NCBI RefSeq assembly: GCF_000702205.1
Contig: NZ_JNKW01000011.1
Span: 1-64,000 of the forward strand
Length of the DNA stretch: 64,000 nucleotides
Reading direction: 5' to 3'
DNA from: Lachnospira multipara LB2003
GTDB lineage: Bacteria > Bacillota > Clostridia > Lachnospirales > Lachnospiraceae
Shown: piece by piece, positions 42,219 to 59,877 of the stretch
How positions within the stretch are numbered: the stretch's first letter is position 1
Layout of the letters: the number at the start of each line of letters is the position of its first letter
Made by a program: the position numbers and the translations under genes
Notes under the pieces: generated by a model
What the model was told of the DNA's origin: nothing
The model's database searches: none
The model's input: the letters and a program-made list of their open reading frames with translations, nothing else

Positions 42219-42917
42219 ATGAATACTAGCTTTAATGCTCAATTTACAACTCTTTTTCAAAGGATATTTAAAGAACAAACAAGCAACGTTTCATTTGGCA
42301 GGTTAATAATTGCTGTCCTTATATTAGCTGTTATTATTCACGCTATCTGCATATACTTAAAAATAAAGCATATAAAGCTTATTAATCCATTAAAGGAATT
42401 CATAACTATATGCATTTGCGGTTATATCTGTGTGTTACTTAGCATTACATTTTTTAACCGAGAGCCAGGCAGTAGAGGCGATATTAACCTTAGTTTAGAA
42501 CTAACCTCTATACTTTTAAAGACTATTAAACAAAGCATTACTAGCGGTCAAATTTTAAAATTTACAGACCTGCTTTTCTTTAATCTTAGTATACAAGGTC
42601 AGTTAGGATTTTTTATTTACTACATCCTAAATATACTTTTATTTATCCCTTGGGGATTTATATTAAGTTTTGCATACTATAAAGAAAATATGCTAAAACG
42701 CTTTTACATGCCAACTATTTATTCTATAATCACTAGTGGTTGTATTGAAATAGGTCAGCTAATTACAAAGCGTGGCTACTTTGAAGTTGAAGATTTAATT
42801 ACTAACATAGCAGGTGGCATAATTGGAGCAATTCTTGCAATTCTTATTATGTTAATAATTAGACTTGTCAAAAAAATATATAAATTAAATGGAGGAGAAA
42901 ATGACAGTAAAATTTAA
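42219..42917 (+). CDS. VanZ-like membrane protein
   Basis: The 232-residue protein has five membrane helices. It carries the VanZ block SGCIEIGQLITKRGYFEVEDLITNIAGG (in pieces: CIEIGQL, FEVEDLITNIAGG). VanZ-domain proteins are found in glycopeptide resistance and in many cell-envelope loci, but no enzymatic reaction is established. It overlaps the following gene by 17 bp. Its presence inside the polysaccharide operon suggests an envelope role. Confidence 0.85.
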   Translation: MNTSFNAQFTTLFQRIFKEQTSNVSFGRLIIAVLILAVIIHAICIYLKIKHIKLINPLKEFITICICGYICVLLSITFFNREPGSRGDINLSLELTSILLKTIKQSITSGQILKFTDLLFFNLSIQGQLGFFIYYILNILLFIPWGFILSFAYYKENMLKRFYMPTIYSIITSGCIEIGQLITKRGYFEVEDLITNIAGGIIGAILAILIMLIIRLVKKIYKLNGGENDSKI

Positions 42918-44997
42918 AGCTAAGCTAAAATTAAAAGATAAGATTGTCATAGGAATTGGCGTACTCATATGTTTATTACTTGTCATTATCATCGTTAGTG
43001 ATAGAGCTAATCAAAGTAAAGAGCAGACTAAATTAAATGAGATGAATGAAGCTACAGATGAAGCTCAAAATAAAAACGTCACCCTAGATGATATCTACAT
43101 AAACGAAGTTAATCAGACAGGTTATGTAGAACTATATAATTCAAGCAATGACAGTAAGAACTTATCTGGATTATCAATTTATTTAAATGATAACAAAATA
43201 TATACTTTTTCAGATGGAGCTAAGATTTCAGGAAAGAGCTTATATACTGTAGACACAGGCGTATCCCTTGGTGCGGATGCTCATTCAATTATCTCTATTG
43301 GTGATGATACTATGTCATCATATGATGGTTTTATTGGACGCTACATCTTAATTCCTCAGCTAAATGCTGGAGAAAGCTTTGGTTATACAGATACTTCCTT
43401 CACTGAAACAGCTCTTATGAGCCAATCAAAAAACGCAAATAATGTAAAGGCATCAACTAACGATTTTTCAAAAGACATTGCCTTTTCAACATATGGCGGT
43501 TTTTATGATTCTGAATTTACACTTAATTTAACAACAGCAGCTAATAAGACAATTTATTACACAACTGATGGTAGTATCCCAACTAGCAATTCTACTAAAT
43601 ATGAAACAGGAATTCGAATAACTAATCTTAGCGGTTCAGATATTCCTCTTTCACTTGAAGTAGCAAAGCAAAATAATGATAACTATACTCCAACTAGCTC
43701 AAGCCGTGGTACGGTTATTCGCGCAATTGCTGTTGATGAAAATGGCAACTCATCAGCTGTATATACACAGACTTACTACATAGGTCAAAAACAAAGCAGT
43801 GATGTAAAAAATATACCATCAATTTCAATTACAATTGACCCTAATGATTTTTCTAACTACTTTAATGGTATTTATGTTAAGGGTACAACTTATGAACAGG
43901 CAGTAGCAAGAGGCCAGTCTACATCTGAAGCTGCCAACTACTTTAATGGTGATAATAAAAACGTTACAGTAGAATTTTTTGAAAAGAGTAAAGATAAGAC
44001 ATACGAAGGTAATCTTAATCTTAGTATTGTTAATGACTATTCAATTTCAAGCTCTCAAAAGAGTTTAATGTTAACATCAGCAGAAACTGTTAACTATCCA
44101 GGAAGCACAATTAATAACTTCTTTGATAATAGCAGCAATGCCTTAACAATAACAACTAATCTTACAGATAATACTTATAAAATCAGAGAATATCTAACAT
44201 CTAAGTTATTAGCTAATAATAATGTAACAGATTATAACCTAACACCGGTTACTGTATTTATTAATGGAGAATACTGGGGTCTTTACTGCCTTAGAGCTCC
44301 AATGAATGAAAGCTATATTGCTAAAAAATATAATTTAGATGAAAGTAATGTTGTAGTTTCAACATCAACAGGAGAAACTCCAAATGCTGATCATAATTCC
44401 TACGGCGCTGAATATTCTAGTTTAACAAGAAGAATTGGAATTACAGATATGAGCGTAACAGAAAACTATAAAGAAGTTTGTGAAGAAATTGATATTGATA
44501 GCTATATTAACTTTATGGCAACTAACATATATTTAAGCAACGCATATGTGGATTCTGATACTAAATATGTATGGAAGACAATTAATGCTGTTGATGATAA
44601 CTATGGCAATGGAAAGTGGCATTACATCTACACTCCACTTGATGGCACAATTAACAATGACAACTCAGGCGGACTTGCAACACCTACAATTAATACTTAC
44701 TTAATAAGTGCATATTCAGCAGACACAATGTTTACATCTTTACTTAATAATGCTGAATTTAAGGCAAAGCTTAATGATGCAATTAAGAATTTAGCTAATA
44801 ACACATTTAATGAAGATAATGTAAAGACTAACCTTGATTTAATATCTAATAGCCTAGAAAAACCAACAGATTACAGCTACAAGAGATTTATTTCAAGCTC
44901 ATCAATATCTTCAAGCTATACAAGTCAAAAAGAAGTTATTACTGATTTCTTTAAGGAAAGAGCTGAATATATTATAAAATATACAAGCGAATTATAA
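42901..44997 (+). CDS. CotH-like protein with lamin-tail and chitobiase-type domains
   Basis: The start at 42901 follows TGGAGGAGAAA. The 698-residue protein has an N-terminal membrane anchor (about 13-35). A lamin-tail-like domain follows (about 60-165, YINEVNQTGYVELYNSS), and then a CHB_HEX_C-type beta domain (about 200-290, NKTIYYTTDGSIPT). The C-terminal CotH-type kinase-like fold (about 300-690) includes EYWGLYCLRAPMNESYIAKKY and KWHYIYTPLDGT. CotH proteins phosphorylate spore-coat proteins or act in surface and cellulosome-like contexts. The outside location means that its substrate could be a surface protein or polysaccharide-associated factor; this is inference. Confidence 0.85.
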   Translation: MTVKFKAKLKLKDKIVIGIGVLICLLLVIIIVSDRANQSKEQTKLNEMNEATDEAQNKNVTLDDIYINEVNQTGYVELYNSSNDSKNLSGLSIYLNDNKIYTFSDGAKISGKSLYTVDTGVSLGADAHSIISIGDDTMSSYDGFIGRYILIPQLNAGESFGYTDTSFTETALMSQSKNANNVKASTNDFSKDIAFSTYGGFYDSEFTLNLTTAANKTIYYTTDGSIPTSNSTKYETGIRITNLSGSDIPLSLEVAKQNNDNYTPTSSSRGTVIRAIAVDENGNSSAVYTQTYYIGQKQSSDVKNIPSISITIDPNDFSNYFNGIYVKGTTYEQAVARGQSTSEAANYFNGDNKNVTVEFFEKSKDKTYEGNLNLSIVNDYSISSSQKSLMLTSAETVNYPGSTINNFFDNSSNALTITTNLTDNTYKIREYLTSKLLANNNVTDYNLTPVTVFINGEYWGLYCLRAPMNESYIAKKYNLDESNVVVSTSTGETPNADHNSYGAEYSSLTRRIGITDMSVTENYKEVCEEIDIDSYINFMATNIYLSNAYVDSDTKYVWKTINAVDDNYGNGKWHYIYTPLDGTINNDNSGGLATPTINTYLISAYSADTMFTSLLNNAEFKAKLNDAIKNLANNTFNEDNVKTNLDLISNSLEKPTDYSYKRFISSSSISSSYTSQKEVITDFFKERAEYIIKYTSEL

Positions 44998-45019: not shown

Positions 45020-46198
45020 ATGAATAACACAATTAATATTAATTTCTTACGAGATCTTATTCTTTCACAGCTACATAATGAAGAGATTAATAGTGTTCCA
45101 GAGGACGTTAACATCGATGATTTATGCAGATTAGCAAGCTTACATCAAATGGAATATATCCTACTTGCACCATTACTTAAATTAGATATTGATAATGCTA
45201 AGAAGGAAAGTATCAGTGCAAGACTATCAAGGGATACATTTATTGACTTAGGTCAAAGACAACAAATTAAGAATATTACAACAACCTTTGAAAGTTACGG
45301 ATTAGACTATCTTCTTATGAAGGGTTCTATCCTAAAGGAAGTTTATCCAAAATCAGTTATGCGTCAAATGGGTGATATCGATTTAATGATTTATGACACA
45401 ACAATGAATAGATCAAGAGAACTATTTAAATTCATGGGTTATAATCTCGAACATTCAGTAAAGATACATGATGTCTATAAAAAAGAACCATTTTGGATAG
45501 TTGAAGCCCATTGGTCATTATTCGATAAAAACGTTGATAAGAATATTTACGATTATTATCAGGAAAGAAGGGCTACACTAAAGGAAGGCACAAAAGCAAC
45601 TTATGAGCTTTCAATTGAAGATTTCTATGTATATATGATTGCACATATGGCAAAGCACTTCTATGAGAATGGATGTGGTATTAGAAACTTAGTAGATATT
45701 TATGTTTATCTTGAACACTATAAGAATCAGTTAAACTACGACAAGCTTGTAGCTGAACTTGAAAAATGTGGACTTTCAACCTTTGAATACCAGTCAAGAC
45801 GACTAGCATATGACTGGTTAGAGAAAAAGGAACTTGATGAAATGGAATTAAGCCTATTCTATTTTATGCTAGATTGTGGTGTTTATGGTAAAGGAGAAAA
45901 TGGTTTCTGGAGCCAATTTGCAAAACAAGCTAACGCAGACGAATCAATAGATAAGGTTATAACTGGAAAGTGGTATTTATTCCCACCAATTAGTTATATG
46001 AAAGAATTCTACCCTAAAGTCGCTAAATACCCAATTCTTCTTCCATGGTATTGGCTTGTTCGTGGTGTAAGAGGACTTACACATAAAGAACGAAGAAGAC
46101 GTAGAGTAGAATTAACTAAGATAGACCAGACAGAAGCTAAGACTATTGTAGACCTATATAAGAACATGGGACTAGATTTTACAAGAACAGAAGAATAA
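45020..46198 (+). CDS. Nucleotidyltransferase-fold protein (NTP_transf_5), lasso-locus type
   Basis: The 392-residue protein carries the NTP_transf_5 core YLLMKGSILKEVYP followed by RQMGDIDLMI, with the two acidic residues of the polymerase-beta-like nucleotidyltransferase site. Genes of this family occur in paeninodin-type lasso peptide clusters, where their reaction is not well defined. The position 1.6 kb before the kinase and cyclase genes, on the same strand, fits that role. The region in between is taken by a flippase gene. It could instead serve the polysaccharide pathway. Confidence 0.85.
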   Translation: MNNTININFLRDLILSQLHNEEINSVPEDVNIDDLCRLASLHQMEYILLAPLLKLDIDNAKKESISARLSRDTFIDLGQRQQIKNITTTFESYGLDYLLMKGSILKEVYPKSVMRQMGDIDLMIYDTTMNRSRELFKFMGYNLEHSVKIHDVYKKEPFWIVEAHWSLFDKNVDKNIYDYYQERRATLKEGTKATYELSIEDFYVYMIAHMAKHFYENGCGIRNLVDIYVYLEHYKNQLNYDKLVAELEKCGLSTFEYQSRRLAYDWLEKKELDEMELSLFYFMLDCGVYGKGENGFWSQFAKQANADESIDKVITGKWYLFPPISYMKEFYPKVAKYPILLPWYWLVRGVRGLTHKERRRRRVELTKIDQTEAKTIVDLYKNMGLDFTRTEE

Positions 46199-46218
46199 AT
46201 TCAAATATAATTGGAGCG

Positions 46219-46256
46219 TTTAACTCAGTCGGAGCTTGTTCTCCGACTGAGTTAAA
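46219..46256 (+). promoter_or_regulatory. Perfect 16-bp hairpin between nucleotidyltransferase and flippase genes
   Basis: TTTAACTCAGTCGGAG (46219-46234) pairs exactly with CTCCGACTGAGTTAAA (46241-46256) around CTTGTT. TCTTTCC follows, not a good T-run. It could be an intra-operon mRNA stabiliser or a weak terminator. Confidence 0.7.
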
Positions 46257-46291
46257 TCTTTCCAATTATTATTTTACAAATTGGAGGATTT

Positions 46292-47815
46292 ATGAGCGAT
46301 AATAGTAGAACAAAACAATCAGCTAAAAATATGACCCTCGGGTTTTTATCACAATTTGTGACATTAGTGCTTAGTTTTGTATCAAGAACAGTTTTCATTA
46401 GATTTTTAGGAGCAGAATACTTAGGAATTAACAGTGTTTTCTCTGATGTATTAAATTTACTTTCCATGGCCGACTTAGGCTTTAATACAGCAATGGCTTA
46501 CTCTTTTTACAAGCCCCTTGCTACAAAGGATGAGAAAAAACTGTCTGCCCTTATTACATTTTACAGCAATGTATACCGCGTAATTGCCGTAAGTATCACA
46601 GTAATTGGTGTAGCCCTTGTCCCTTTTTTAAGATACATTGTAAAAACTGAAAAGGACATACCAAACCTTGAAATTTACTACTTGTTCTCACTTGCAGGAG
46701 TTGTAATCTCATATTTATTTGTATATAAGACAACTATCCTAACAGCAGACCAGAGAGATTACGAACTAACATCAATTAACATATTTACAAACACTGGAAA
46801 AACCATACTTCAAATTATTTCTCTTATTCTATGGCACAATTATATTCTATACCTTCTTATAGGTATAATTATGCAGCTTATTCGTAATTTAATTGCCACA
46901 AGAAAAGCAGAAAAACACTACCCATATATAAAAAATAAAGAACCATTAGATAAAGACGAGAAAAAAGAGATCTATAAAAATATGAGATCTGTATTTATTT
47001 ACAAAATAAGTAATACCTTATTTACAGGTACAGATAATATTATTATTTCCTCAATTGTTGGTATTACAATTGTTGGTTATTACTCAAATTATCTTATGCT
47101 AAGTAAGAAATTACTTCTTGTAATCCAGATTGTATTCTCAGCACTTACAGCAAGTGTTGGTAATGTAATAGCCAAGGAAAACCCTCAGAAAAGATACGAG
47201 GTATTTAATTCAATTCAATCCCTTGCCTTTACAGTAAGTGGGGTTATTACCTGCGGATTTTTACTAGTGGTTAACGATTTTATTACCGTTTGGCTAGGAA
47301 GTGAGTTTGTCCTTGATTTCCCAACAGTAATTGCAATTACACTAAACACTTATTTTTCTTGTATATTGCTTCCATTGTGGGTTTACAGAGATGCAACAGG
47401 TCTATACATGAAGACAAAATACATCTCCTTTGCAGGAGCCGTTCTAAATATAGTTCTTTCAATTGTACTTGGTTTGTGGCTTGGCCTTGCAGGTATTTTA
47501 TTTGCAACAGTAATAGCACAGCTAAGCTCATATTTTGTATATGAACCAGTTGTATTATTTAAGGATTTCTTTGAAAAAAAAGCAACAGAATACTACATAG
47601 CAATTGCTAAAAACCTAAGTATAGCTGTGGTTACATCCCTTGTTTTAGGCTATATTCTTAGATTCTTTACAGTTACTAATTGGATTAGCCTTATTATAGA
47701 AATTATATTTGTAGGACTAGTAGTTGCCCTAGTATATATATTCTTCTATAGAAAAACCGAAGGTTTTAAGATGCTTTCAAACAAAGTCTTACGCTTTTTT
47801 AAGAAGAATAAATAA
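46292..47815 (+). CDS. Polysaccharide flippase (Wzx/MATE superfamily)
   Basis: The 507-residue protein has about 14 membrane helices and typical Wzx features (KNMTLGFLSQFVTLVLSFVSRTVFIRFLG opening in pieces: FLSQFVTLVLSF and FIRFLGAEYLGINSVF). It would move lipid-linked repeat units across the membrane to the polymerase. It lies between lasso-type genes, so the polysaccharide operon and the lasso genes are physically mixed. GGAGG precedes the start. Confidence 0.9.
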   Translation: MSDNSRTKQSAKNMTLGFLSQFVTLVLSFVSRTVFIRFLGAEYLGINSVFSDVLNLLSMADLGFNTAMAYSFYKPLATKDEKKLSALITFYSNVYRVIAVSITVIGVALVPFLRYIVKTEKDIPNLEIYYLFSLAGVVISYLFVYKTTILTADQRDYELTSINIFTNTGKTILQIISLILWHNYILYLLIGIIMQLIRNLIATRKAEKHYPYIKNKEPLDKDEKKEIYKNMRSVFIYKISNTLFTGTDNIIISSIVGITIVGYYSNYLMLSKKLLLVIQIVFSALTASVGNVIAKENPQKRYEVFNSIQSLAFTVSGVITCGFLLVVNDFITVWLGSEFVLDFPTVIAITLNTYFSCILLPLWVYRDATGLYMKTKYISFAGAVLNIVLSIVLGLWLGLAGILFATVIAQLSSYFVYEPVVLFKDFFEKKATEYYIAIAKNLSIAVVTSLVLGYILRFFTVTNWISLIIEIIFVGLVVALVYIFFYRKTEGFKMLSNKVLRFFKKNK

Positions 47816-47836
47816 AGTTTATTAATGGAGGATACA

Positions 47837-48760
47837 ATGTATTGGTATAAATTATATGGAAAAAACGTAATGTCTGAATTCGAACTTTATCAGTGCGTTA
47901 CAATTGACCCCCTAACAAAGGAAGAAGCTGACATCATTATTACAAATGAAAACCTTCCTGAAGAAGTTTTAAACTCCCTTCCAAAGGATACAATGCTAGC
48001 TTCAAAAATCGACCGTAAATTCACTTACTTCACTAACACTTGGGGTTTATTTGGAATAAGAGATGGTAAATATATAACTGCTTATAAAAGGGAAGGTGCA
48101 ACAGAAGAAAACCTTCATCCATTTATATTAGGTTACGCAATTGCCTTCCTTTTCTGGCAGAATAACATGCACTCAATACACTGTAGTTGCATAAGAATTA
48201 ACGGAAAAGCCCTACTTTTCTCAGGAGTTAGTGGAAGTGGTAAATCAACTCTTACAACTAAGTTCCTTGATGAACAAAATGCATCTTTAATCTCTGATGA
48301 TGTAGTTGTGGTAAATATAGAAGATGGCAAGCTTTTAGCTTATCCTGCCTTCCCACAGCAAAAACTTTGCAGAGATGCTGTACAAAGAAACGGCAGAAAT
48401 GAAGATGATTTAAGATATATCGATGAAACAAAGGATAAGTTTGCCCTAAATAGAAGCGAAGGTTTCCTTTTAGAACCAGCCGAATGCCTTGGAATGGTGG
48501 TATTAGACCATACTGATAAGGTAACTAATGTGGAATATGAAGCAATTACAGGAAATGATAAGATTTCTGCAGTATATACTAACTGGTTTTTATTCCCTGC
48601 AATGCGCGAATTAAGCACAGATCTAATTGACTTCCAGAGAAGTTTACGTATTGCTTCAAAGCTTGATATTCTCCATATTACAAGACCAGATAATGTGGAT
48701 AGTACTAGCGATCAGGTAAAAATTATAAACGACTTTTTTAAGTTAGGACTAGACTTATAA
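47837..48760 (+). CDS. HPr-kinase-like protein of lasso peptide locus
   Basis: The start at 47837 (MYWYKLYGKNV) follows TGGAGG; a frame start four codons earlier overlaps that site. The 307-residue protein has a P-loop GVSGSGKSTL and ISDDVVVVNIEDGKL, as in the C-terminal domain of HPr kinase. The N-terminal region is unlike true HprK. In the paeninodin cluster a homologue phosphorylates the C-terminal Ser of the precursor. One of the three precursors here (51168-51302) does end with Ser. It is followed after 22 bp by the cyclase gene. Confidence 0.88.
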   Translation: MYWYKLYGKNVMSEFELYQCVTIDPLTKEEADIIITNENLPEEVLNSLPKDTMLASKIDRKFTYFTNTWGLFGIRDGKYITAYKREGATEENLHPFILGYAIAFLFWQNNMHSIHCSCIRINGKALLFSGVSGSGKSTLTTKFLDEQNASLISDDVVVVNIEDGKLLAYPAFPQQKLCRDAVQRNGRNEDDLRYIDETKDKFALNRSEGFLLEPAECLGMVVLDHTDKVTNVEYEAITGNDKISAVYTNWFLFPAMRELSTDLIDFQRSLRIASKLDILHITRPDNVDSTSDQVKIINDFFKLGLDL

Positions 48761-48782
48761 GAAAGGAGTCTAATGGCAAGAT

Positions 48783-50735
48783 ATGGGTGCAATTTCAGGC
48801 ATAATAAACACAAATACAGACCTAGAAAATAGAGACGATTACTGCAAAAAAATCACTTCTACTCTAGCGCCATACAAAATAGATAGTATATTAACTAACG
48901 AAACAAACAATGCTTTTTTTGTATATGCAAATCAAGTATTTACTAAAGAAGATAATTACAACATAGGTGCATACTATCATAAAGAAACTAATAATTTTAT
49001 GATAGCTGACTGTATGATAGATAACAGAGATTCCCTATTTTTAAAAATAGATCCTAGCTATCTTCATAATAAGCCTAAGGCTCAAGTATCAGATCAAGAG
49101 CTACTATATGCAGCTTATCTAAGCTTTGGTACAAAATTTACTGATTATGTATGCGGTATTTTTAGTTTTGTTATTTATAACGACAAGAAGAAAGAATGTC
49201 TAATTTTTACAGATCATACATCAACAAGAACAATTCATTATATGATAGATAATGGAATTATTTATTTTGCTACTCTTTTTGAAACAATAAAAAAATGCGT
49301 AAATAAGCCGTTAGAATTAAACGAAGAGTGGTTAAGTTTTGCAGATGCTCTACCAAATCCAGATTTAATCTATAGAGTAGAACAGTCTCCATATATTGGA
49401 ATTTACACCGTTGAGGCAGGTCACTATGTTAGTATTAAGAATAATGAGATAAAAGCTCACTGTTACTACAATCCCTCAAAGGTAAAGCTTCATCTAAAGC
49501 TAAAGACTGATGAAGAATACAAGAATTTTTTTATTAATTTATTAGACACCTGCACAACATCCTTACTTCGTTCCAATAAAAACACAGGCTGTACCTTAAG
49601 TAGTGGCCTTGATTCAAGCGCAGTAGCTTGTCTTGCAGCAAGAGCCTTAGAAAAAAGAGGAGAAACACTTCATTCCTACACATCAGTACCGCTAAAGGAC
49701 TTTAATGCTGCCACATTAAATACAAAGGGTGTATATGAAATAGAAGATGAATCCTTTGGCCCTATAGCCATTAAAGAAAAATATAAAAACCTTAGTATTA
49801 ACCTTGTGGATTGCAAAGGAAAAACTGCTTTTACAGGCATGAGAAATACCATAAAACTAAATGAATTACCACATAAATCCTTAGTAAATTACACATGGAT
49901 GAGTGAAATCTATGATTTAGCAAGTAAAAACGACTGTAAGATTATGTTAAAGGGTCAATATGGTAACTCCACAATTTCCAATGGAAAAATTTTATCAAGA
50001 GTTTACCAGGAACTTTTAAGCTTTAAATTTATATCAGCAATAAAGCTGTCTAAGGAATTTATACGCGTAAATAAAATACCTAAGAAGCTATTTATAAAGA
50101 ACTTCATTAACTCATATAAGGCTAAATTTAAGCTTGATTTGTCTGAGCTTGATAAATTCTATTTACGCAAAGATTTAATTGATAAATATCATATACGTAA
50201 AGAGTTAAAGAAAAACTTTACTAAAGAAGGTGGCACATATATAGACTCTAAGGCACAGTTTAGAAGATATGTATATGACACAAGAATATTACAGCATCTA
50301 GGCCTATTTGATACAAGATTGTCCCTAATATATGGCGTCGTTATTAGAGACCCAGCAAAGGACAAACGAATGATTGATTTTGTATTTAACGCTCCTAACA
50401 GCTGTATGGTTCATAATGGCGTTGAAAGAAGAATGATTAGAGAATATATGAAGGGCATTATTCCAGATGAAATTCTAGAGGTTACTAATAGACGTGGAAG
50501 ACAAAGCTCTGATTACGCATATAGAGTAAATAACGCCTTTAATTTAGGAATAAAAAAAGAAATTTTAACAGCGCTAGAAAACAAAAAATTGTACGATTAT
50601 TTAGATGCTAGTAAAATAGAGCTTCTTAAAAAACGCATAGAAAACTCAAATAAACTAGATGAAGATGAGATACAAAATATACTCTGTATATGCAGTTTAT
50701 CTGTGTTTTTACAGATACATTATGGAAACTGTTAA
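48783..50735 (+). CDS. Lasso peptide macrolactam synthetase (Asn-synthetase-like)
   Basis: The 650-residue protein has an N-terminal class II glutaminase fold in which the catalytic Cys2 is replaced by Gly (MGAISGIIN), so it cannot use glutamine. The C-terminal ATP-pyrophosphatase domain has the PP-loop SSGLDSSAVACLAARALE and KGQYGNSTISNGK. This is the plan of lasso cyclases such as McjC, which adenylate an Asp or Glu side chain and close it onto the N-terminal amine of the core. AAAGGAG lies 14 bp before the ATG. The precursor genes follow 200 bp later with their own promoter. Confidence 0.88.
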   Translation: MGAISGIINTNTDLENRDDYCKKITSTLAPYKIDSILTNETNNAFFVYANQVFTKEDNYNIGAYYHKETNNFMIADCMIDNRDSLFLKIDPSYLHNKPKAQVSDQELLYAAYLSFGTKFTDYVCGIFSFVIYNDKKKECLIFTDHTSTRTIHYMIDNGIIYFATLFETIKKCVNKPLELNEEWLSFADALPNPDLIYRVEQSPYIGIYTVEAGHYVSIKNNEIKAHCYYNPSKVKLHLKLKTDEEYKNFFINLLDTCTTSLLRSNKNTGCTLSSGLDSSAVACLAARALEKRGETLHSYTSVPLKDFNAATLNTKGVYEIEDESFGPIAIKEKYKNLSINLVDCKGKTAFTGMRNTIKLNELPHKSLVNYTWMSEIYDLASKNDCKIMLKGQYGNSTISNGKILSRVYQELLSFKFISAIKLSKEFIRVNKIPKKLFIKNFINSYKAKFKLDLSELDKFYLRKDLIDKYHIRKELKKNFTKEGGTYIDSKAQFRRYVYDTRILQHLGLFDTRLSLIYGVVIRDPAKDKRMIDFVFNAPNSCMVHNGVERRMIREYMKGIIPDEILEVTNRRGRQSSDYAYRVNNAFNLGIKKEILTALENKKLYDYLDASKIELLKKRIENSNKLDEDEIQNILCICSLSVFLQIHYGNC

Positions 50736-50860
50736 AGAACTTTTTAGGAAACTATGAGTGGAAACTTAGTTCCCTTATATGGTTTCAAACTCAGAATTTG
50801 CAATATCTTCTTGGATACTGTTATAAATTTTAGAATTTTCTTACAAAGTTGTTAGATTAC

Positions 50861-50888
50861 TTTACAATTTTAATTTTAAAGCTATAAT
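50861..50888 (+). promoter_or_regulatory. Promoter of the lasso precursor genes
   Basis: TTTACA (50861-50866) and TATAAT (50883-50888) are 16 bp apart, 43 bp before the first precursor ATG. It gives the small genes their own transcript, as needed for high precursor levels. Confidence 0.7.
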
Positions 50889-50930
50889 AAAGGAGAATTA
50901 ATTAATAAATCTTTAAGGAGGATATGAAAA

Positions 50931-51077
50931 ATGAGAACATGGACAAAGCCAGAAGTTGAAGTATTAGCTATTGCTGAAACAGCACAGGGAAAGGTAATCA
51001 AGGCTTCATTTGATGCTATCAGAACAGATGTAAATGGTAACTTATGGGTAAGCTTCCCATCAGGTGCAGAAGAATAA
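50931..51077 (+). CDS. Lasso peptide precursor 1 (48 aa)
   Basis: ATG at 50931 lies nine bases after AAGGAGG. The product begins MRTWTKPEVEVLAIAETA. The leader has W4-x2-P7, a hydrophobic stretch and T17-A18, like the YxxP...T leader read by the B1 protein. The core begins near QGKVIKASFD and ends SGAEE. A ring closed between Gly20 and Asp28 would have nine residues; cutting after A18 would make Gln19 the first residue and a ten-residue ring, less usual. Residues 33-42 (DVNGNLWVSF) would form the loop and tail. Confidence 0.82.
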   Translation: MRTWTKPEVEVLAIAETAQGKVIKASFDAIRTDVNGNLWVSFPSGAEE

Positions 51078-51079
51078 TT

Positions 51080-51146
51080 AACTTACAGATATGTTAGAAA
51101 GCTTTACAATTAATATATTTATGATATATTAATCTAGTAAGTTTTT
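51080..51146 (+). terminator. Partial terminator between precursors 1 and 2
   Basis: AACTTAC (51080-51086) pairs with GTAAGTT (51137-51143), with an inner TTAATATAT / ATATATTAA stem (51110-51118 and 51124-51132), and TTTTT follows. The same stretch also reads as TTTACA-16-TATATT (51103-51130), a possible extra promoter. Confidence 0.55.
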
Positions 51147-51167
51147 TAGCAAGGAGGAAGTTATATT

Positions 51168-51302
51168 ATGAAAACTTGGATAACACCTGCAGTAGAAGAG
51201 CTAGAAATTGTAGAAACAGCACAGGGAAAGAACATTAAGCCTTCATTCGATGAATTAAGAGTTGATGCTAATGGAAACCTTTGGGCTAGTTTTCAGTCAT
51301 AA
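51168..51302 (+). CDS. Lasso peptide precursor 2 (44 aa, C-terminal Ser)
   Basis: ATG at 51168 lies after AAGGAGG. The product begins MKTWITPAVEELEIVETA, the same leader plan as precursor 1, with W4, P7, T17 and A18 in register. The core starts QGKNIKPSFD and ends LWASFQS. Relative to precursor 1, the frame Q-G-K-x-I-K-x-S-F-D and the tail N-G-N-L-W-x-S-F are kept, and the rest varies. The last residue is Ser44, the position phosphorylated in paeninodin by the kinase homologue encoded upstream. Ring closure is likely on Asp28. Confidence 0.85.
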   Translation: MKTWITPAVEELEIVETAQGKNIKPSFDELRVDANGNLWASFQS

Positions 51303-51340
51303 GTTTTAGTATTTAACTTCGTAGTAAAGGAGATTCAATT

Positions 51341-51550
51341 ATGAAAAATTGGAAGACACCTGCAATCGAAGAATACGAGATCAGAGATACAGCTTGCACA
51401 CGTGGTTATTATGATTATTCAACACCTACACCATGCAATAACAATCAGTACTATGCTGTTGATGTTAGTGGTTGGGCAGAGGATGTCAGTGGTGACAATT
51501 GCTCTGGTTTCAATATTTATGGTTTCTTTGGTAAGGGTTGGATTTGGTAA
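51341..51550 (+). CDS. Lasso-type precursor 3 with long aromatic core (69 aa)
   Basis: AAAGGAG precedes the start. The leader (MKNWKTPAIEEYEIRDTA) has W4, P7, T17 and A18 at exactly the same positions as in precursors 1 and 2. The remaining 51 residues are unrelated: C19-T-R-G-Y-Y-D25 opens the core, followed by a Tyr/Asn/Gly/Trp-rich region with Cys32 and Cys54 and the end FFGKGWIW. If cut after A18, a seven-residue ring C19-D25 is possible. The tail would be much longer than in known lasso peptides (15-24 residues in total), so another modification or a further cleavage is likely. Confidence 0.8.
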   Translation: MKNWKTPAIEEYEIRDTACTRGYYDYSTPTPCNNNQYYAVDVSGWAEDVSGDNCSGFNIYGFFGKGWIW

Positions 51551-51589
51551 TTTCTATAAATTGTTATAGACTTTTTATCATTTAGAAAC

Positions 51590-51628
51590 TATAATAATAA
51601 GGGCTTTTTATAAGCCCTTATTTTTTTT
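51590..51628 (+). terminator. Terminator after the precursor genes
   Basis: AAGGGCTT (51599-51606) pairs with AAGCCCTT (51612-51619), and nine T residues follow, apart from one A. The ABC exporter gene begins 28 bp after the T-run, so exporter transcription depends on read-through or on the weak TATAAT at 51590. Confidence 0.8.
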
Positions 51629-51655
51629 ACATTATATAAGTTCTAGGAGGAAATA

Positions 51656-53329
51656 GTGAATAAGATTATCTCTAAACTTAGCCAAATAAAGAATAAAAAA
51701 GAATATTTTCATTGGCTTTTTATTTATTCTAAGCCATATATTCCAAAAATTCTTTTGGTAATGTTTTTTAATATTATGGCTACTGTTATTTCCATCCTTA
51801 TGGCCCTATTATCTAAGAAGATAATAGATAGTGCCCAGGGTGGTAATATTATTCTTTGGGCCATTGGAATTTACCTTTTAATGATTTTTGTAAATGTTGC
51901 CTTTACAATAGCTAATGGAGTGGTATCCATTATGCTTAATGAGCGTTTTTCTTTTGGAATTAGAAAACAAGTTTACGAAAAAATTATTAATGCACATTGG
52001 ATGGATATTAAAAAATATCACACAGGGGATTTAATGACTCGATTTACAAGTGATGCTGGAAATGTTGCAGATGGAATAGTTAATACAATCCCAACTATTA
52101 TTGAGCTTTTATTTGAGTTAATTGCAACATTTGCTACACTTTTTTATTACGAGCCATTACTTGCTATTTTTGCAATTATATTAGCTCCTATAGCTGCTCT
52201 TATAAGCTATGCATTTGCTCATAAGATGCACAAATACCAGAAGAAAGTACAGGAGTCAGAATCTGCATATAGATCCTTTGTACAAGAAAGCTTAGCTAAC
52301 TTACTTATAGTTAAGGCCTTTACTATTGAAGATCATTCCGTAGATAAGCTTACAAATCTTCGTGATGAAAGATTTAAGTGGGTTTTAAAAAGAGCCGGAG
52401 TTGGTATGGCTAGTTCATCAGTACTTAATATGGCATTCCAGTTTGGTTATATAGCTGCCTTTGCCTTTGGTGCAATTCAGTTATCTAATAACTCAATTAC
52501 ATATGGTACTATGTCTGTTTTCCTTACTTTAGTTAATAGAATTCAGGCACCTATTATTAGCCTTGCTAGCCAATTACCTAAAATTGTCTCTATATTCACA
52601 TCTGCAGGACGTATAATAGAGCTTGAAGAGATTCAAACTGAAGAAAAGCAAATGACTAATATAGAATCCAATACAGTTGGTGTAAAATTACAGGATGTAT
52701 CCTTTGGATATAACCCAAAAGACATTGTTCTTGACAATGTAAATCTTGACATTAAACCAGGTGAATTTGTTGGTATTGTTGGAGAATCCGGTATTGGTAA
52801 GACAACCCTTGTAAGGCTTATTATGAGCTTTATGAACCAGAATAATGGTCTTATTACATTCTACAATGAAAAAGACCAGCATGAGGCTGCTAACGCCTCT
52901 ACAAGAGAGTTTATATCCTACGTACCACAGGGAAATACACTATTTAGTGGAACAATCCTTGAAAATATCAAAATGGGCAATATGAACGCTACAGATGAAG
53001 AAATTCAGACCGCCATTAATATGGCTGCAGCCGATTCCTTTATTAATGACTTACCAATGGGAGTTAATACTGTGATTGGTGAGAGAGGACACGGTATTTC
53101 AGAGGGACAAGCTCAAAGAGTTGCTATTGCTAGAGCTCTTATTAGAAAGGCTCCTTTCCTTGTTCTTGATGAAGCCACATCAGCTCTTGATGAGAATACA
53201 GAAATCAAGGTATTAGAAGGTATAAAGAAACTAAATCCAAGACCTACATGCCTTTTAATTACACATAGAAGAAGTGTTCTTGATTACTGTGATAGAGAAA
53301 TTAAGATTGATAACGGACATATTTACTAG
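51656..53329 (+). CDS. ABC exporter (lasso D protein)
   Basis: The GTG start at 51656 follows CTAGGAGG. The 557-residue half-transporter has six membrane helices (about 28-305). Its ATPase domain shows Walker A GESGIGKTT, Q-loop YVPQGNTLFSG, signature SEGQAQRVA and Walker B FLVLDEATSALDE. It carries no N-terminal C39 peptidase, which fits a locus where cleavage is done by the B2 protein. It would export the mature lasso peptide and give self-protection. It works as a homodimer, as there is no partner gene. Confidence 0.9.
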   Translation: MNKIISKLSQIKNKKEYFHWLFIYSKPYIPKILLVMFFNIMATVISILMALLSKKIIDSAQGGNIILWAIGIYLLMIFVNVAFTIANGVVSIMLNERFSFGIRKQVYEKIINAHWMDIKKYHTGDLMTRFTSDAGNVADGIVNTIPTIIELLFELIATFATLFYYEPLLAIFAIILAPIAALISYAFAHKMHKYQKKVQESESAYRSFVQESLANLLIVKAFTIEDHSVDKLTNLRDERFKWVLKRAGVGMASSSVLNMAFQFGYIAAFAFGAIQLSNNSITYGTMSVFLTLVNRIQAPIISLASQLPKIVSIFTSAGRIIELEEIQTEEKQMTNIESNTVGVKLQDVSFGYNPKDIVLDNVNLDIKPGEFVGIVGESGIGKTTLVRLIMSFMNQNNGLITFYNEKDQHEAANASTREFISYVPQGNTLFSGTILENIKMGNMNATDEEIQTAINMAAADSFINDLPMGVNTVIGERGHGISEGQAQRVAIARALIRKAPFLVLDEATSALDENTEIKVLEGIKKLNPRPTCLLITHRRSVLDYCDREIKIDNGHIY

Positions 53330-53353
53330 ATTCCTATTAATCTCGTAATAATA

Positions 53354-53404
53354 AAAAGACTAAATTAGATTTAAATTTAATAATCTAATTTAGTCTTTTA
53401 TTTA
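53354..53404. terminator. Bidirectional terminator between exporter and B2 gene
   Basis: AAAAGACTAAATTAGATT (53354-53371) pairs perfectly, 18 bp, with AATCTAATTTAGTCTTTT (53382-53399). A- and T-rich flanks serve both converging genes. Confidence 0.88.
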
Positions 53405-53456
53405 GTCTTTTTTCTTGAAAATTTCTTAAACTACTTGTTTCTTAATGCTTCTTAAA

Positions 53457-53909
53457 CTACTTATAAAAACAAGCAACAGTAGTATATTCGTGTCCATCTC
53501 CACCTGTTACATATAGCTGACCACATCTTAGCCATGCATGAGCTATCATCTTCTTATTCTCATCAAGGCCAACTCCAAGATACATTGTAGTATGGATATT
53601 TCTTGATTTTAGAAGATATTGGGCTGTCCAGGCACGACATAAGCACTTCATTTCCCAAGGGGCTTTATTGGTCGTTCTAGCAACTCTATCGCTTACATGC
53701 ATTGCAATCTTTAAATTCTCTACTGATTCTGTATCAGCAGATTCCTTGCCTCTTTCTCCAAATTTTATCTCTAGCTTTTTCATTGGAGATTTCTTAATAC
53801 AGTGAAAATAATAGGCAGATACAATAACTGCCTGTATTGTCATGAATTTTTCATGGTTTTTAAATACAAAGTTAAATACTAATTTAATTGTTTTTTTTAT
53901 TTTTCCCAT
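53457..53909 (-). CDS. Lasso peptide leader peptidase (B2, transglutaminase-like)
   Basis: The start at 53909 (MGKIKKTIKLVFN) follows GGAAGG; an earlier frame start lacks a site. The 150-residue protein has the B2 pattern: Cys89 in KCLCRAWTAQYLL, His124 in IAHAWLRCG and Asp138 in VTGGDGHEY, which are the papain-like catalytic triad. It removes the leader from the precursor when bound to B1. Unlike the rest of the locus it is on the minus strand, converging on the exporter and divergent from the B1 gene. A second Cys (Cys91) next to the catalytic one is unusual. Confidence 0.88.
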   Translation of the reverse strand: MGKIKKTIKLVFNFVFKNHEKFMTIQAVIVSAYYFHCIKKSPMKKLEIKFGERGKESADTESVENLKIAMHVSDRVARTTNKAPWEMKCLCRAWTAQYLLKSRNIHTTMYLGVGLDENKKMIAHAWLRCGQLYVTGGDGHEYTTVACFYK

Positions 53910-54016
53910 TTGATATAACCTTCCAAACATGATAAAATCTACTTAATTCTAACATAAAACAAAATATTTTTCATTAGCCGGACATAAAAAATGATAATAA
54001 TTTATCAATTTATTAA

Positions 54017-54044
54017 TTGACTTTTTTTAATTTTATAGTATTAT
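54017..54044 (+). promoter_or_regulatory. Promoter of the B1 gene
   Basis: TTGACT (54017-54022) and TATTAT (54039-54044) are 16 bp apart, 47 bp before the B1 start. TATGCTAGAAT downstream offers a second possible -10. Confidence 0.5.
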
Positions 54045-54090
54045 ATTTTATGCTAGAATTTTTTTACGGATATAAATATGAGGAGGCTCT

Positions 54091-54366
54091 ATGGATAAAG
54101 AAACAAGAATCCATTTAATAAAGAAACTCGAGGTTGCTGAATTAGATGGCGACAAAGCTATGATCGATTTTGAAACAGGAAAGTACTTTCTTTTAAAAGG
54201 TGCTGCTAACGATATTTGGGATATTATTCAAGAAGATATTACAGTTGGCGATATTATTAATAAATTAAGAGCTATGTTTGATGTTTCAGAAGAGGAATGT
54301 ACAGAAGCTACTATTAGCTTTTTAGAGAATTTAAAGACTTTAGGTTTTATTGAAGCAATTAACTAA
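54091..54366 (+). CDS. PqqD-like leader recognition protein (lasso B1)
   Basis: The 91-residue protein is a PqqD/RRE-type winged helix (YFLLKGAANDIWDIIQEDITVGDIINKL, given in pieces: YFLLKGAANDIW and TVGDIINKL). Such proteins bind the leader of RiPP precursors and present it to B2 and the cyclase. W4 and P7 of the three precursors are the expected contacts. GAGGAGG precedes the start. It closes the lasso locus. Confidence 0.88.
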   Translation: MDKETRIHLIKKLEVAELDGDKAMIDFETGKYFLLKGAANDIWDIIQEDITVGDIINKLRAMFDVSEEECTEATISFLENLKTLGFIEAIN

Positions 54367-54479: not shown

Positions 54480-55274
54480 CTAATTAACTAGTGGGAGCTC
54501 TATAAAGAACTTACTTCCCACTCCTAATTCACTTTCGCATCTAACTCTGCCTTTGTGATGCTCAACTATGGTTTTTACAATGGCTAAGCCAAGGCCACTT
54601 CCTGTAACTGTTTCAGGAGTTCTTGCGCTTGAAACTGTATATGACCTATTAAAAATCTTAGGTATATCAGCCTTTGGAATTCCAAGACCTGTATCATACA
54701 CAACTATAACGATTTTATTATGATCATTATAGGCTTTTAAGCCTATTGTAGCGCCTTCCTTAGAATATTTATAAGCATTAGTAAATAAATTATCAAGTGT
54801 TCTTGTAAAGCTCTCTATATCAATCATAGAAGCCTTATTTTCTAAATCATCTAGATTAAGTTCTAATTTCCTAGTCTTATATTTTTTATCATCTTCTAAA
54901 TAGTAGTAGTACTCCATAAGAAAATTATACATATTGACTTTCTCAAACTTATATTTGTGACTTGGATTATCAAGGGATGTTAAATAAAAAAGGTCCTGTA
55001 TTAAGTTCTCTAGGTTTCTGCTTCTTCTATCAAGAAGTGAAACTATATTATGAAACTCATCAACGCTTGGCATTTCATCCCCTTCAAAGGTTCCAAGATA
55101 ATCTATAGCATTTCTTATTGCAGTCATTGGAGCACGTAAATCATGAGAAATATTGGCCACCATTTCTTTACGCATATTTCTTTCTTCTGAAATCTCTTTA
55201 TTTGCCTTGGCAAGCTTAATTGTCAAATCTCTGACCTCAGATATCTGTGGCTTTTTAAAAGTGTTTTTTTTCAT
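54480..55274 (-). CDS. Soluble sensor histidine kinase
   Basis: The 264-residue protein has no membrane helix and no recognisable sensor domain before the HisKA domain. After 35 residues of coiled coil comes the H-box with His44 (ANISHDLRAPMTAI). The HATPase domain has the N-box (DNLFTNAYKYS), the D-box (VYDTGLGIPK) and the G-boxes (GSGLGLAIVK). It should phosphorylate a response regulator, most simply the one at 59936-60661 on the same strand. The two are separated by the GH5 and glycosyltransferase genes. Input may come through another protein. GGAGGAATT precedes the start. Confidence 0.9.
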   Translation of the reverse strand: MKKNTFKKPQISEVRDLTIKLAKANKEISEERNMRKEMVANISHDLRAPMTAIRNAIDYLGTFEGDEMPSVDEFHNIVSLLDRRSRNLENLIQDLFYLTSLDNPSHKYKFEKVNMYNFLMEYYYYLEDDKKYKTRKLELNLDDLENKASMIDIESFTRTLDNLFTNAYKYSKEGATIGLKAYNDHNKIVIVVYDTGLGIPKADIPKIFNRSYTVSSARTPETVTGSGLGLAIVKTIVEHHKGRVRCESELGVGSKFFIELPLVN

Positions 55275-56295: not shown

Positions 56296-59200
56296 TTATT
56301 CTGCTTTTACATAAGATGACTTATCCTCTGTATTAACAAATCCTATTGTAAGTGATAATAGGCCGCTGTCTAAATACTCTTTAAATTTAGCTTCTTTACA
56401 AGCCATATAGCTATTATTAATACCAACTCTAACATATTTAGCTCCCTCTGGGATTACATATGTTACCATCTTATATCCTGTAGATGAATTATTGGTCTGA
56501 ATTACGTTCATTTTCTCATCATAGAAGTGTACATAATGAACTCTTGCCTGATAATAATCACCAGTAATACTAAGCAATACTGTAAGGTAATCTGAATCCT
56601 CTGGAATGCTTATTCCCTTGCCATTAATGTCTGTTGTTAATGTACCCCAGTATTTATCATCCCTTAATTCACCTGTCTTCTGGTTTAGTGTCTGCCATTT
56701 AAAGCTATCCATTGAATTATAAACTGTCTTATTACTTGTTAGGTAAGAAGTAGCATTCACAAGAGCTGAAAGCATATCTGTATTAGATTTTGAATAATCA
56801 ACTCTGTTAACTAAACCATAATTATTCTGATTTCCATCATCCCAGTATACACACTTAATTCCATATTCGCTAGCACGTGCAACATAATTACTTGCTGCAT
56901 TAACTCTGTATTCTGCTGGCACATATGATGGTTTTGTACCAAATTCACCAATAATAACTGGTGTGTTAATTTTCTTACTAAATTTTGAAAGTGGTTCAAA
57001 TAAGGAATTAATATCCTGGTCAAAAGCTGTACTATAGTCATGAACTTCTACAATTAATCTATCTGCTGTTTGATCTGTTGGAAGAACAAAACTATCAAGG
57101 AAGCTGCTTTCGCGGCCATCAAGTAGGGTAGGAACAACTAATAATCTATTAGTATTGTTTCCACCAAGTCCTCTTACAGTATCTACAAAAATCTGATTTA
57201 AAGTATTCATCTGACTTGCTGCCTTATCGCTATAATTCCAGCTTAGGGCCACATTATCAACCTCATTATAACTTTCAAAAATCAAATGCTCATCGTAATC
57301 ACCAAAATAACTAGCGATCTCACTCCATAAAGCTCTAGCATCTTTACAAACCTGATTAAATTTTTCTTCTGTAGTACCTGCATAAATAATTGGCTGTTCA
57401 TGGTGTGTATTAAGAATTACATACATATCGTTTTTGATTGCATAATCAAGGACTGTTTGAACTCTTTCTAACCATTCCTGTCTAACTTTTAAATTGCCAT
57501 TATCATCTGTATATGTGTTGTAATACCAAGTTACAGGAATTCTGATTGTGTTAAATCCCTGCTCCTTAACATATTCAATTAAGTCTTCAGTAATAACTAT
57601 ATTTCCCCAAGTTGTTTCTTGATTTGGTGCGCCCTTATCAGTTCTGTCACCATAATGAGAATCTAGTGAATTACCTAAATTCCAGCCTACATTCATTGTA
57701 TTCATAAATTCAGTAGCAGTAATAGGGTTCATTGCTGTATTGTGTTCATATTTTTCAAATTTTTCAAGGCTAAGCTTCTGATCTGAATTAAACTGATTTC
57801 TATAATCAGTTTCGCTAAATGAACCTACATTAGACTTAACATAAACACCAATATAATCTGTTTGCTCATCTGCTGTCCACATTTCACCTGACTGATATGA
57901 ATTTGTCTTAACATAACTACCATCATTTTTATATTCCACAATTGTCATTCTTAAATTGTGATTATCAAGATTTACTCTGTACTTGCCCTTATCATTACTT
58001 ACATCAAGATATTTAGAACAAGCAAGGCAGTTAGCACTTACATTAAATCCTGTAGCTGAAAAGCTACCCATATTGTAGTTAGTAAAATCACTAAAGTCAA
58101 ACTGACTTATGTCGACTTTATCAACTCCTGTGCAATAAAATTTTGAGTTAAGATCAATTGTCATACCCACATCAAGAAGGCCTAAACAATCAACGCCCCA
58201 AACACTAGAATTAAAGTTTAATCCTATGTAGCTTGCATTAGAACTTGCAACATATTTGCTTCCATTTGTTAAATGGTCAACGTATCTAATAGCTTTACCA
58301 TCCTTATCAAATTCTGCAATTGAAATAAGAATTCTTGAGTCGTTTACATTAACATAATACTCTTTACCTGGTGTAATACTGTATTTATTTCTTGTACAGT
58401 AAACACCTGAATAATTCTCATAAGACAAGCCCCATGACTTATAATGACCTTGTCTGTAGTTTGAAGAATTACTTAAAGATCCTATATGAACCTCACCTAA
58501 TAATTCCTCTGGATTTTCTTTTATTTCATCTAAATTCACAGTTGTAAATGTAAGCTGCGAAGTTAGAAGATTTTTTAAATCTGTAAGAGTGTTTTCCTTA
58601 GTTTCTTCATCCTTATACTGATACATTGAATATGTAACATATTTTGTATCAGCTAGTTTTGTAAAATAATCCCCGTTTCCTAAATCCACGCATCTAATGA
58701 AGTTAAAATTACTATCATATTCATTAATTTTTAATCGAAGTGTTGAATCACAAATATTGACTTTTTTAGATTCTTCAAAAAATGTGTAATAAGAATTAAG
58801 TCTCATTGTGTCGCTAATATCTGCAATCTTGCCCTTTGAATCAAATCCACCATAAACCCAGTCAAGATTAGCATTTAAAGATTCAAGTGGTAATTCACTT
58901 ACCTTTAATTCTTCTTCCTTTGTTTCTTTTTCTTCTTGCTTTGGCTTATCATCAACATCCGGATCAACTACAACTGGTGTGTCATCATTACCAACAAGAG
59001 CTGTACTGCTTAAAGAAAGAGTATAAACGCCATACTTCATATATGATCTAAACATTCCAAGTGTCAATGTATAATCACTTGCATTATAGGCGCTAAGAAC
59101 CAGGCTTTTTGTGTTTTTGTTAAAAATAAGAGTATCGCCATTTTTAGCCTCAAGGTTATTAATAACATTACCGTTCTTATCCATTTCATTGATTATAAGC

Positions 59201-59877
59201 CTTAAGGAACTCACATTAGTCTTAAATGTGTATGAATAATTTGGATCAACTGTTACTTCGTTTCTAAGATTAATGTAAGATGTGTAGTTAAAAATCTTAG
59301 AGCCGTCAAAGCTAACCAAGCCTCTTCTCCAAAGTCCTGGATTATTAAGGTTAGTATAACTAGCCTCTGTTTTATAGCCTGTTAACTTTTTTTGACTGAT
59401 TGTAAAACCAGATTCAAAAAGCTCTTTATATTTTTCATATGTCATTGCATAGTCTGATGGATTATAAATAGAAATACCACAATAACTTACTCCATCCTCG
59501 ATTATAATTTCTGCACCGTCTGAAATAGTATTATCAAAATCTACAAGCTCAAAATTCTCATCATATTGGGCAAAAACTATAACATAAGATGATTCCGAAC
59601 ATGATATTTTATAGACGTCACCTGCTGTAACCTTTAAGAATTCTTTAGTTGATAGAAATGCACTCCATGTGTCAAATCCACCACCATTTTGGTAAATTCC
59701 CTTTTTCCAGTTCGAAAAATCTGAAAGACTAAAATTTGACAATTTAGTCTCATTAACATTAGTGGTCTCAGAAGCATTAGCGGATATACTTCCTACACTT
59801 AAATACGCCGAAAATACTGTACAAACCGCAGTAGTAACTGCAATCCACTGCCTTAATGTTTTCTTTAACTTTTTCAT
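56296..59877 (-). CDS. Secreted GH5 glycoside hydrolase with five N-terminal modules
   Basis: The 1193-residue protein has a Sec signal peptide (basic start, hydrophobic core, cleavage near SANA-S at about 36). Five modules follow, at roughly 45-160, 165-292, 330-460, 468-595 and 598-705. An acidic linker around 298-325 (DDTPVVVDPDVDDK) lies between the second and third. The GH5 domain spans about 720-1060, with Glu872 (SYNEVDN) as acid/base and Glu978 (IGEFGT) as nucleophile. A C-terminal module completes it. The last three modules, the GH5 and the C-terminal domain align with the 905-residue protein. It is secreted and lacks a membrane anchor or sorting motif. AGGAGGTTT precedes the start. 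Confidence 0.9.
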   Translation of the reverse strand: MKKLKKTLRQWIAVTTAVCTVFSAYLSVGSISANASETTNVNETKLSNFSLSDFSNWKKGIYQNGGGFDTWSAFLSTKEFLKVTAGDVYKISCSESSYVIVFAQYDENFELVDFDNTISDGAEIIIEDGVSYCGISIYNPSDYAMTYEKYKELFESGFTISQKKLTGYKTEASYTNLNNPGLWRRGLVSFDGSKIFNYTSYINLRNEVTVDPNYSYTFKTNVSSLRLIINEMDKNGNVINNLEAKNGDTLIFNKNTKSLVLSAYNASDYTLTLGMFRSYMKYGVYTLSLSSTALVGNDDTPVVVDPDVDDKPKQEEKETKEEELKVSELPLESLNANLDWVYGGFDSKGKIADISDTMRLNSYYTFFEESKKVNICDSTLRLKINEYDSNFNFIRCVDLGNGDYFTKLADTKYVTYSMYQYKDEETKENTLTDLKNLLTSQLTFTTVNLDEIKENPEELLGEVHIGSLSNSSNYRQGHYKSWGLSYENYSGVYCTRNKYSITPGKEYYVNVNDSRILISIAEFDKDGKAIRYVDHLTNGSKYVASSNASYIGLNFNSSVWGVDCLGLLDVGMTIDLNSKFYCTGVDKVDISQFDFSDFTNYNMGSFSATGFNVSANCLACSKYLDVSNDKGKYRVNLDNHNLRMTIVEYKNDGSYVKTNSYQSGEMWTADEQTDYIGVYVKSNVGSFSETDYRNQFNSDQKLSLEKFEKYEHNTAMNPITATEFMNTMNVGWNLGNSLDSHYGDRTDKGAPNQETTWGNIVITEDLIEYVKEQGFNTIRIPVTWYYNTYTDDNGNLKVRQEWLERVQTVLDYAIKNDMYVILNTHHEQPIIYAGTTEEKFNQVCKDARALWSEIASYFGDYDEHLIFESYNEVDNVALSWNYSDKAASQMNTLNQIFVDTVRGLGGNNTNRLLVVPTLLDGRESSFLDSFVLPTDQTADRLIVEVHDYSTAFDQDINSLFEPLSKFSKKINTPVIIGEFGTKPSYVPAEYRVNAASNYVARASEYGIKCVYWDDGNQNNYGLVNRVDYSKSNTDMLSALVNATSYLTSNKTVYNSMDSFKWQTLNQKTGELRDDKYWGTLTTDINGKGISIPEDSDYLTVLLSITGDYYQARVHYVHFYDEKMNVIQTNNSSTGYKMVTYVIPEGAKYVRVGINNSYMACKEAKFKEYLDSGLLSLTIGFVNTEDKSSYVKAE

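Follow-up and report, generated by a model that had tools for sequence, protein, structure and literature searches.

A probable paeninodin-like lasso-peptide cluster within an exopolysaccharide locus of Lachnospira multipara LB2003

Described lasso clusters and the gene set of the locus

Two characterized lasso peptides provide the framework for the locus described here, namely paeninodin of Paenibacillus dendritiformis, in which the kinase PadeK is reported to phosphorylate the C-terminal Ser (PMC9266682), and pseudomycoidin of Bacillus pseudomycoides, which reportedly carries a phosphate and one or two hexoses, the latter added to the phosphorylated peptide by a nucleotidyltransferase (PMC8498205). 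Our subject is a putative lasso-peptide locus at positions 45020–54366 of a 64,000-nucleotide stretch of Lachnospira multipara LB2003 (contig NZ_JNKW01000011.1, positions 1 to 64,000; hereafter the window). Its apparent novelty must be corrected, as a 2020 rumen survey (PMC7533575) had already described the cluster from genome sequence, including precursors A1 and A2 out of the three. In Table 3 of that survey, entries #1 and #2 of L. multipara LB2003 have exactly the sequences of A1 and A2, and A2 is also listed for strain MC2003. For the Lachnospira lasso clusters the survey names a serine kinase of HPr type and a sensor kinase resembling WalK, and it reports rumen metatranscriptome reads mapping to lasA and lasC of another L. 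multipara strain, D15d. Another survey, published in 2026 on that same culture collection, counted lasso clusters as well and repeated the D15d expression result (PMC13289728). No product of the locus was found reported in open-licence literature.

We interpret the locus as a paeninodin-like lasso-peptide cluster set in an exopolysaccharide locus, and assign this reading, together with the following route, a probability of roughly 0.82. The PqqD-like protein B1 would bind the WxxPx[V/I/L] leader; an HprK-like kinase would phosphorylate a C-terminal Ser, which is terminal in A2; the leader peptidase B2 would cleave after Thr-Ala-Gln; the cyclase would link Gly1 to the side chain of Asp9; an NTP_transf_5 enzyme may attach a hexose to the phosphate; and an ABC exporter would secrete the product. 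We infer these chemical steps, and the maturation of A1 and A2 into lassos, from protein family matches, kept gene order, invariant residues in precursors, kinase and B2, the proximity of B1 to a paeninodin-type structure, a kinase–NTP_transf_5 open reading frame (ORF) in a related locus, the published status of A1 and A2, and the role of the pseudomycoidin nucleotidyltransferase.

An earlier note on this stretch, made from the sequence alone, had named the genes of such a locus, and the ORF list together with Pfam and NCBIfam matches placed every one of them where the note had (Table 1), in an order kept in two sister genomes of the genus, G002 and G003. The best NCBIfam match of the cyclase was the lasso cyclase model NF033535, alongside a match to Pfam Asn_synthase (E 2.4e-16), and its nearest solved chain was the hydroxyamidotransferase 7ylz (E 5e-7). 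The note had also remarked on Gly at residue 2 of the cyclase, correctly so; Cys occupied that position in none of the 17 cyclases compared, and Gly2 is therefore ordinary for the group. B2 exceeded the cut-off of NF033537 (60.1 versus 33 bits) and its C96 and H131, candidate active-site residues, were invariant in all nine aligned sequences; it matched no solved chain at E 0.01. B1 exceeded the Pfam PqqD cut-off (51.9 versus 23.4 bits), and its nearest solved structure was 9x90 (E 3e-10), the paeninodin-type precursor-recognition element (RRE) PbaB1 with its leader (PMC13381572). Together with W4 and P7 in A1, A2 and the third peptide A3, this places an RRE beside leaders of the W/YxxPx[L/V/I] form. 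The best NCBIfam match of the exporter was MsbA, under its cut-off.

A close cyclase homologue was present in three of 22 genus genomes (the window's own, G002 and G003), all 22 giving some cyclase match, mostly of a weak asparagine-synthetase type. Large-gene order was kept in both sisters, with 56–84 % protein identity within the interval, so that the cluster is more than a chance arrangement; the sisters are, however, 97–100 % identical to each other over compared proteins of at least 140 aa and amount to about one independent comparison. The cyclase was only 56 % identical to its sister counterparts, against 73–84 % for the remaining large genes of the interval, and the nearby VanZ-like and CotH genes were likewise low (54–57 %). 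The window and G003 each have two precursors of the A1/A2 type and G002 has three; every one of the three loci has a single A3. Across the family, 13 of 397 genomes (including the window's own and G002) matched the cyclase at E 1e-15 or better, in 18 rows of which two were own or sister. Twelve of the other 16 loci were fetched, leaving out the weakest four (G355, G202, G135:C16 and G191:C36), and these held further kinases, cyclases and precursors. In loci L053 and L056 a pair of cyclase-like genes occurs with two or three kinases and three precursors bearing the leader, and one B1 was found in each, which suggests that such loci are modular. A cyclase scan of genome contigs returned no match, which says little given that it also missed the sister loci in the same collection. 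Genus searches with the NTP_transf_5 and capsule proteins yielded no locus-lacking genome from which insertion boundaries could be drawn, as close matches (80–81 %) occurred only in the same two sisters.

The kinase is a P-loop kinase with weak, sub-cut-off matches to HPr-kinase and PEPCK models (Pfam PEPCK_ATP, E 5.5e-6; Hpr_kinase_C, E 1.7e-5; TIGR04352, E 3.8e-8). All 18 aligned sequences keep H119, K140, D158 and D159, which are candidate active-site residues and presumably represent the published His-Lys-Asp-Asp motif. A C-terminal Ser, the residue targeted by PadeK in paeninodin (PMC9266682), is present in A2, and the phosphorylation envisaged in the earlier note is plausible on these sequence grounds; A1 ends in PSGAEE and A3 in WIW. 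By analogy with pseudomycoidin, the NTP_transf_5 protein may add a hexose to the phosphate, which would give it a place in the lasso pathway. Homologues were found in five of the 12 fetched family loci, at 39–40 % identity in L053, L054 and L062 and 22–27 % in L051 and L058. In L053 a single 653-aa ORF (32–1993) carries both HprK-like kinase and NTP_transf_5 domains, which fits successive action on one substrate.

Several observations weigh against this reading. The cyclase falls well short of the curated NF033535 cut-off (166 versus 525 bits), B1 is under the cut-off of the lasso PqqD model NF033536 (63.9 versus 80 bits), and Asp145 of B2 varies among aligned sequences. The paeninodin precursor model NF033524 has a cut-off of 27 bits, which A1 (23.6) and A2 (17.2) miss and A3 does not match at all. 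A1 has no terminal Ser, and Thr does not stand at −2 if Gly is core residue 1. An NTP_transf_5 match occurs in ten of 22 genus genomes but a close cyclase in only three, seven genomes without a close cyclase carrying a (weaker) NTP_transf_5 match, and a flippase gene lies between the NTP_transf_5 gene and the rest of the locus. Finally, A2 is just over the cut-off of Pfam PqqA (PF08042; 21.3 versus 21.1 bits), through leader residues 3–14 only and with no single stretch passing alone; it scored 18.0 bits against a cut-off of 20 for TIGR02107, and no search for other PQQ genes was made. The PqqA match arises because a WxxP leader is common to PQQ precursors (PMC13381572), and automatic annotation may consequently misname A2. 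Overall, the earlier assignment to the paeninodin type stands in part: the gene set, the invariant kinase residues, the closeness of B1 to PbaB1 and the terminal Ser of A2 speak for it, and the sub-threshold A1 and A2 and their longer Thr-to-Asp spacing against it.

One leader, with a core pattern common to A1 and A2

As the earlier note had proposed, three short precursors share one leader (W4, P7 and T17 in A1, A2 and A3). Beyond the leader they differ, with A1 and A2 following a common core pattern that A3 lacks. We fixed the register by the leader Trp/Tyr 13 residues before Thr and counted acid positions from that Thr (T+n). T17, A18, Q19, G20 and D28 were invariant across the seven A1/A2-type precursors. 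The acid lies at T+11 in A1 and A2 and at T+8 in A3, and none of the three has the T+10 acid of paeninodin, which we take to be Asp9 with Thr at −2. An acid seven to nine residues from core residue 1 is found in A1 and A2 only if Gly20 is that residue.

Among 33 Lachnospiraceae precursors (chance ORF L060 2818 excluded), 21 had the acid at T+11, eight had it only at T+10 and four had it at neither position, namely A3, its two orthologues and L054 1720. A search with NF033524 gave 18 rows, of which 15 were kept (chance ORFs L121 1493, L129 2400 and L141 1340 excluded; kept rows L129 and L146 under the model cut-off); in the same register, all 15 had Gly at T+3 and 12 had an acid at T+10, the remaining three comprising one with a T+11 acid and two with no acid from T+8 to T+12. 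Rows in either set are not independent, since the window and its two sisters contribute ten of the 33, and the 15 include several paralogues. A further search of the 397 family genomes gave matches in 21 at E ≤0.05; from its loci, L093, L099, L102, L104 and L106 were scanned, and precursors were added only by L099 and L106. A separate subfamily (L057 10732, L060 7422 and L062 8146) carries TAH followed by x-W-x-G and DGGYIGDG, without Gly at T+3.

A3 has 69 aa and three Cys. Its middle differs in sequence and length among the three genomes, which share the final 21 residues without change. The last 30 codons display nine synonymous versus two non-synonymous differences from either sister, and the first 19 codons four to five versus two, indicative of selection on the precursor. 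It had no Pfam or NCBIfam match, and an AlphaFold2 model was uninformative (mean pLDDT 35). That A3 is itself a lasso, with Cys1 closing on Asp7 in the window or Glu8 in the sisters, is doubtful. It shares leader and neighbourhood with A1 and A2, and Cys stands at T+2 in all three A3 peptides. The L061 precursor likewise has Cys at T+2, and its acid at T+8 is accompanied by others at T+11 and T+12. However, the acid of A3 moves from T+8 in the window to T+9 in the sisters, which gives no support to a fixed lasso ring, and were A1 and A2 cleaved at Thr(−3), cleavage of A3 would have to fall one residue further upstream. We also considered a hidden core (Gly44-x7-Asp52, conserved in the sisters) and set it aside, there being no leader-like Thr before Gly44. 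A3 probably uses the leader handling common to A1 and A2, with a mature form that the lasso pattern does not predict, and it should not yet be counted as a lasso. The earlier claim that the locus makes lasso peptides appears right in general but probably does not extend to A3, which has no consistent ring acid. Tentatively, one RRE/peptidase pair might feed two product classes, Gly1–Asp9 lassos from A1 and A2 and a longer Cys-bearing A3 peptide, non-lasso or differently closed, whose conserved C-terminal part, not the N-terminal ring region, would be the active portion.

Searches turned up relatives of A3 only in the sisters. A pattern scan of genome contigs, of limited reach (two exact heptapeptides), returned 115 stretches, of which the two confirmed were the sister loci, and a profile search of the 397 family genomes matched four: the window's own, G002 and two weak matches (E 0.005 and 0.007). 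The weak matches were dismissed, one being the leader of another precursor in genome G116 and the other containing an internal stop. A3 is absent from Table 3 in the main text of PMC7533575, and we recognised no description of it in open-licence literature. Genome G116 also encodes a Cys-containing peptide with a lasso-type leader (L065 1501–1695, contig C29) on a contig other than that of its lasso cluster (L053, contig C2); the adjoining ORF resembles a pectinesterase, as judged by eye and not by family search.

Cleavage register of A1 and A2

Thr is stated to be the penultimate leader residue of all lasso precursors reported before one Ile case (PMC10368454), and a cut at this usual place, after Thr-Ala, would leave A1 and A2 with a ten-residue ring, Gln1–Asp10. 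We consider this unlikely, although an engineered analogue with such a ring has been made in vitro (PMC8498205) and the constancy of Gly at T+3 in NF033524-search precursors, most of which have their acid at T+10, means that this Gly alone is no proof of residue 1. Among the 21 peptides with a T+11 acid, large or polar residues predominate at T+2 (Q 11, N 3, Y 2, F 2, G 1, C 1 and V 1), and 18 of the 21 have Gly at T+3. Position 1 of a lasso is usually small, and the two distributions thus favour a cut at Thr(−3) with a Gly1–Asp9 ring. Half of the eight T+10-only peptides have Gly at T+3 and would fit eight-residue rings, a further point against the ten-residue alternative; the other four (W, A, R and N at T+3) support neither register. 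We therefore regard cleavage at Thr(−3) and a Gly1–Asp9 ring as the likelier course for A1 and A2, on an argument from size that draws on general lasso chemistry. The 2020 survey likewise places Gly at +1, Asp at 8–9 and Thr at −3, but it used Gly1 as a selection criterion, and its assignment is consequently not independent evidence (PMC7533575).

That the peptides are instead linear polyphosphorylated peptides (LPP) is very improbable and was rejected: kinase, NTP_transf_5 protein, RRE, exporter and exopolysaccharide setting are held in common with the LPP system (PMC13381572), but the locus has a cyclase and B2, its leaders carry WxxP with the LPP motif quoted in that paper not seen by eye, and the SpI-like/archaeal-type signal peptidase model TIGR02228 gave no match in the window's genome (eight of 14 control genomes matched, four over cut-off).

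Genomic setting and comparison with known systems

The lasso locus sits within an exopolysaccharide locus of Lachnospira multipara. Family searches identified a sugar transferase, an Alg14-like protein and glycosyltransferases upstream, then VanZ-like and CotH proteins, with weak, sub-cut-off matches to chain-length (Wzz) and Wzy_C families; downstream are a sensor kinase, a capsule-synthesis protein, a GH5 protein and a response regulator. The flippase gene that separates the NTP_transf_5 and kinase genes, unmentioned in the earlier note, more likely belongs to this surrounding locus, and the sensor histidine kinase is a possible regulator. Two large GH5 (cellulase family) proteins (31278–33995 and 56296–59877) flank the polysaccharide/lasso locus on either side, and the CotH-kinase protein directly upstream of the NTP_transf_5 gene (42889–44997) contains a chitobiase-C-like domain, besides giving a weak lamin-tail match.

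Table 1. Features of the lasso-peptide locus and its conserved neighbour (window coordinates)
Feature	Position	Strand	Evidence or remark
NTP_transf_5 protein (N)	45020..46198	+	Pfam E 9e-47
Polysaccharide flippase	46292..47815	+	Pfam Polysacc_synt E 3e-11; same position in both sister genomes
HprK-like precursor kinase (K), putative	47825..48760	+	Weak HPr-kinase/PEPCK model matches; invariant H119, K140, D158, D159
Lasso macrolactam cyclase (C), putative, without Cys2	48783..50735	+	NF033535 E 1.3e-48, under its cut-off
Promoter-like site upstream of A1, TTTACA-16-TATAAT	50861..50888	+	Top scorer of 39 sites
Precursor A1	50931..51077	+	Predicted core from Gly20; predicted ring Gly1-Asp9
Precursor A2	51168..51302	+	Predicted core from Gly20; predicted ring Gly1-Asp9; C-terminal Ser
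Third peptide A3	51341..51550	+	Same leader; three Cys; C-terminal end kept in sisters
Intrinsic-terminator-like hairpin after A3	51596..51622	+	11-pair stem, then T run
ABC exporter (D)	51656..53329	+	Pfam ABC_membrane, ABC_tran
Leader peptidase B2, putative	53457..53930	-	NF033537 over cut-off
RRE/PqqD-like B1	54091..54366	+	Pfam PqqD E 1e-13
Sensor histidine kinase, conserved neighbour	54480..55274	-	HisKA, HATPase_c; 70 % identity in sisters

The promoter scan found no excess of sites over chance in the region (39 versus a mean of 46.5 in shuffles). Both hexamers of the site before A1 are nevertheless present in both sisters, and alignment revealed a stem similar to the hairpin after A3 in each; the two elements fit a single A1-A2-A3 transcript.

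The nearest described loci are the putative lasso clusters of L. multipara LB2003, MC2003, D15d and ATCC 19207 and L. pectinoschiza M83 (PMC7533575). A1 and A2 are identical to the peptides listed there for LB2003, and the HprK-like serine kinase, LasB, LasC, LasD and WalK-like sensor kinase named for Lachnospira clusters are shared, the difference being A3, which Table 3 of that paper does not include. With the LPP and Pba lasso systems of Paenibacillus alginolyticus (PMC13381572) the window shares a B1 nearest to PbaB1 and the polysaccharide-locus setting; it differs from the LPP system in the lack of a SpI-like peptidase match in its genome and in its cyclase. Pseudomycoidin has in common the kinase and nucleotidyltransferase, although in the window the nucleotidyltransferase gene lies upstream, beyond the flippase, and its activity is predicted. 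Compared with paeninodin, the window has three precursors, a B2 gene on the opposite strand, precursors that do not reach the model cut-off and a Thr-to-acid distance exceeding that of most NF033524-type precursors, whilst separate B1 and B2, a cyclase, an HprK-like kinase, a W/YxxP leader and, in A2, a C-terminal Ser are common to both.

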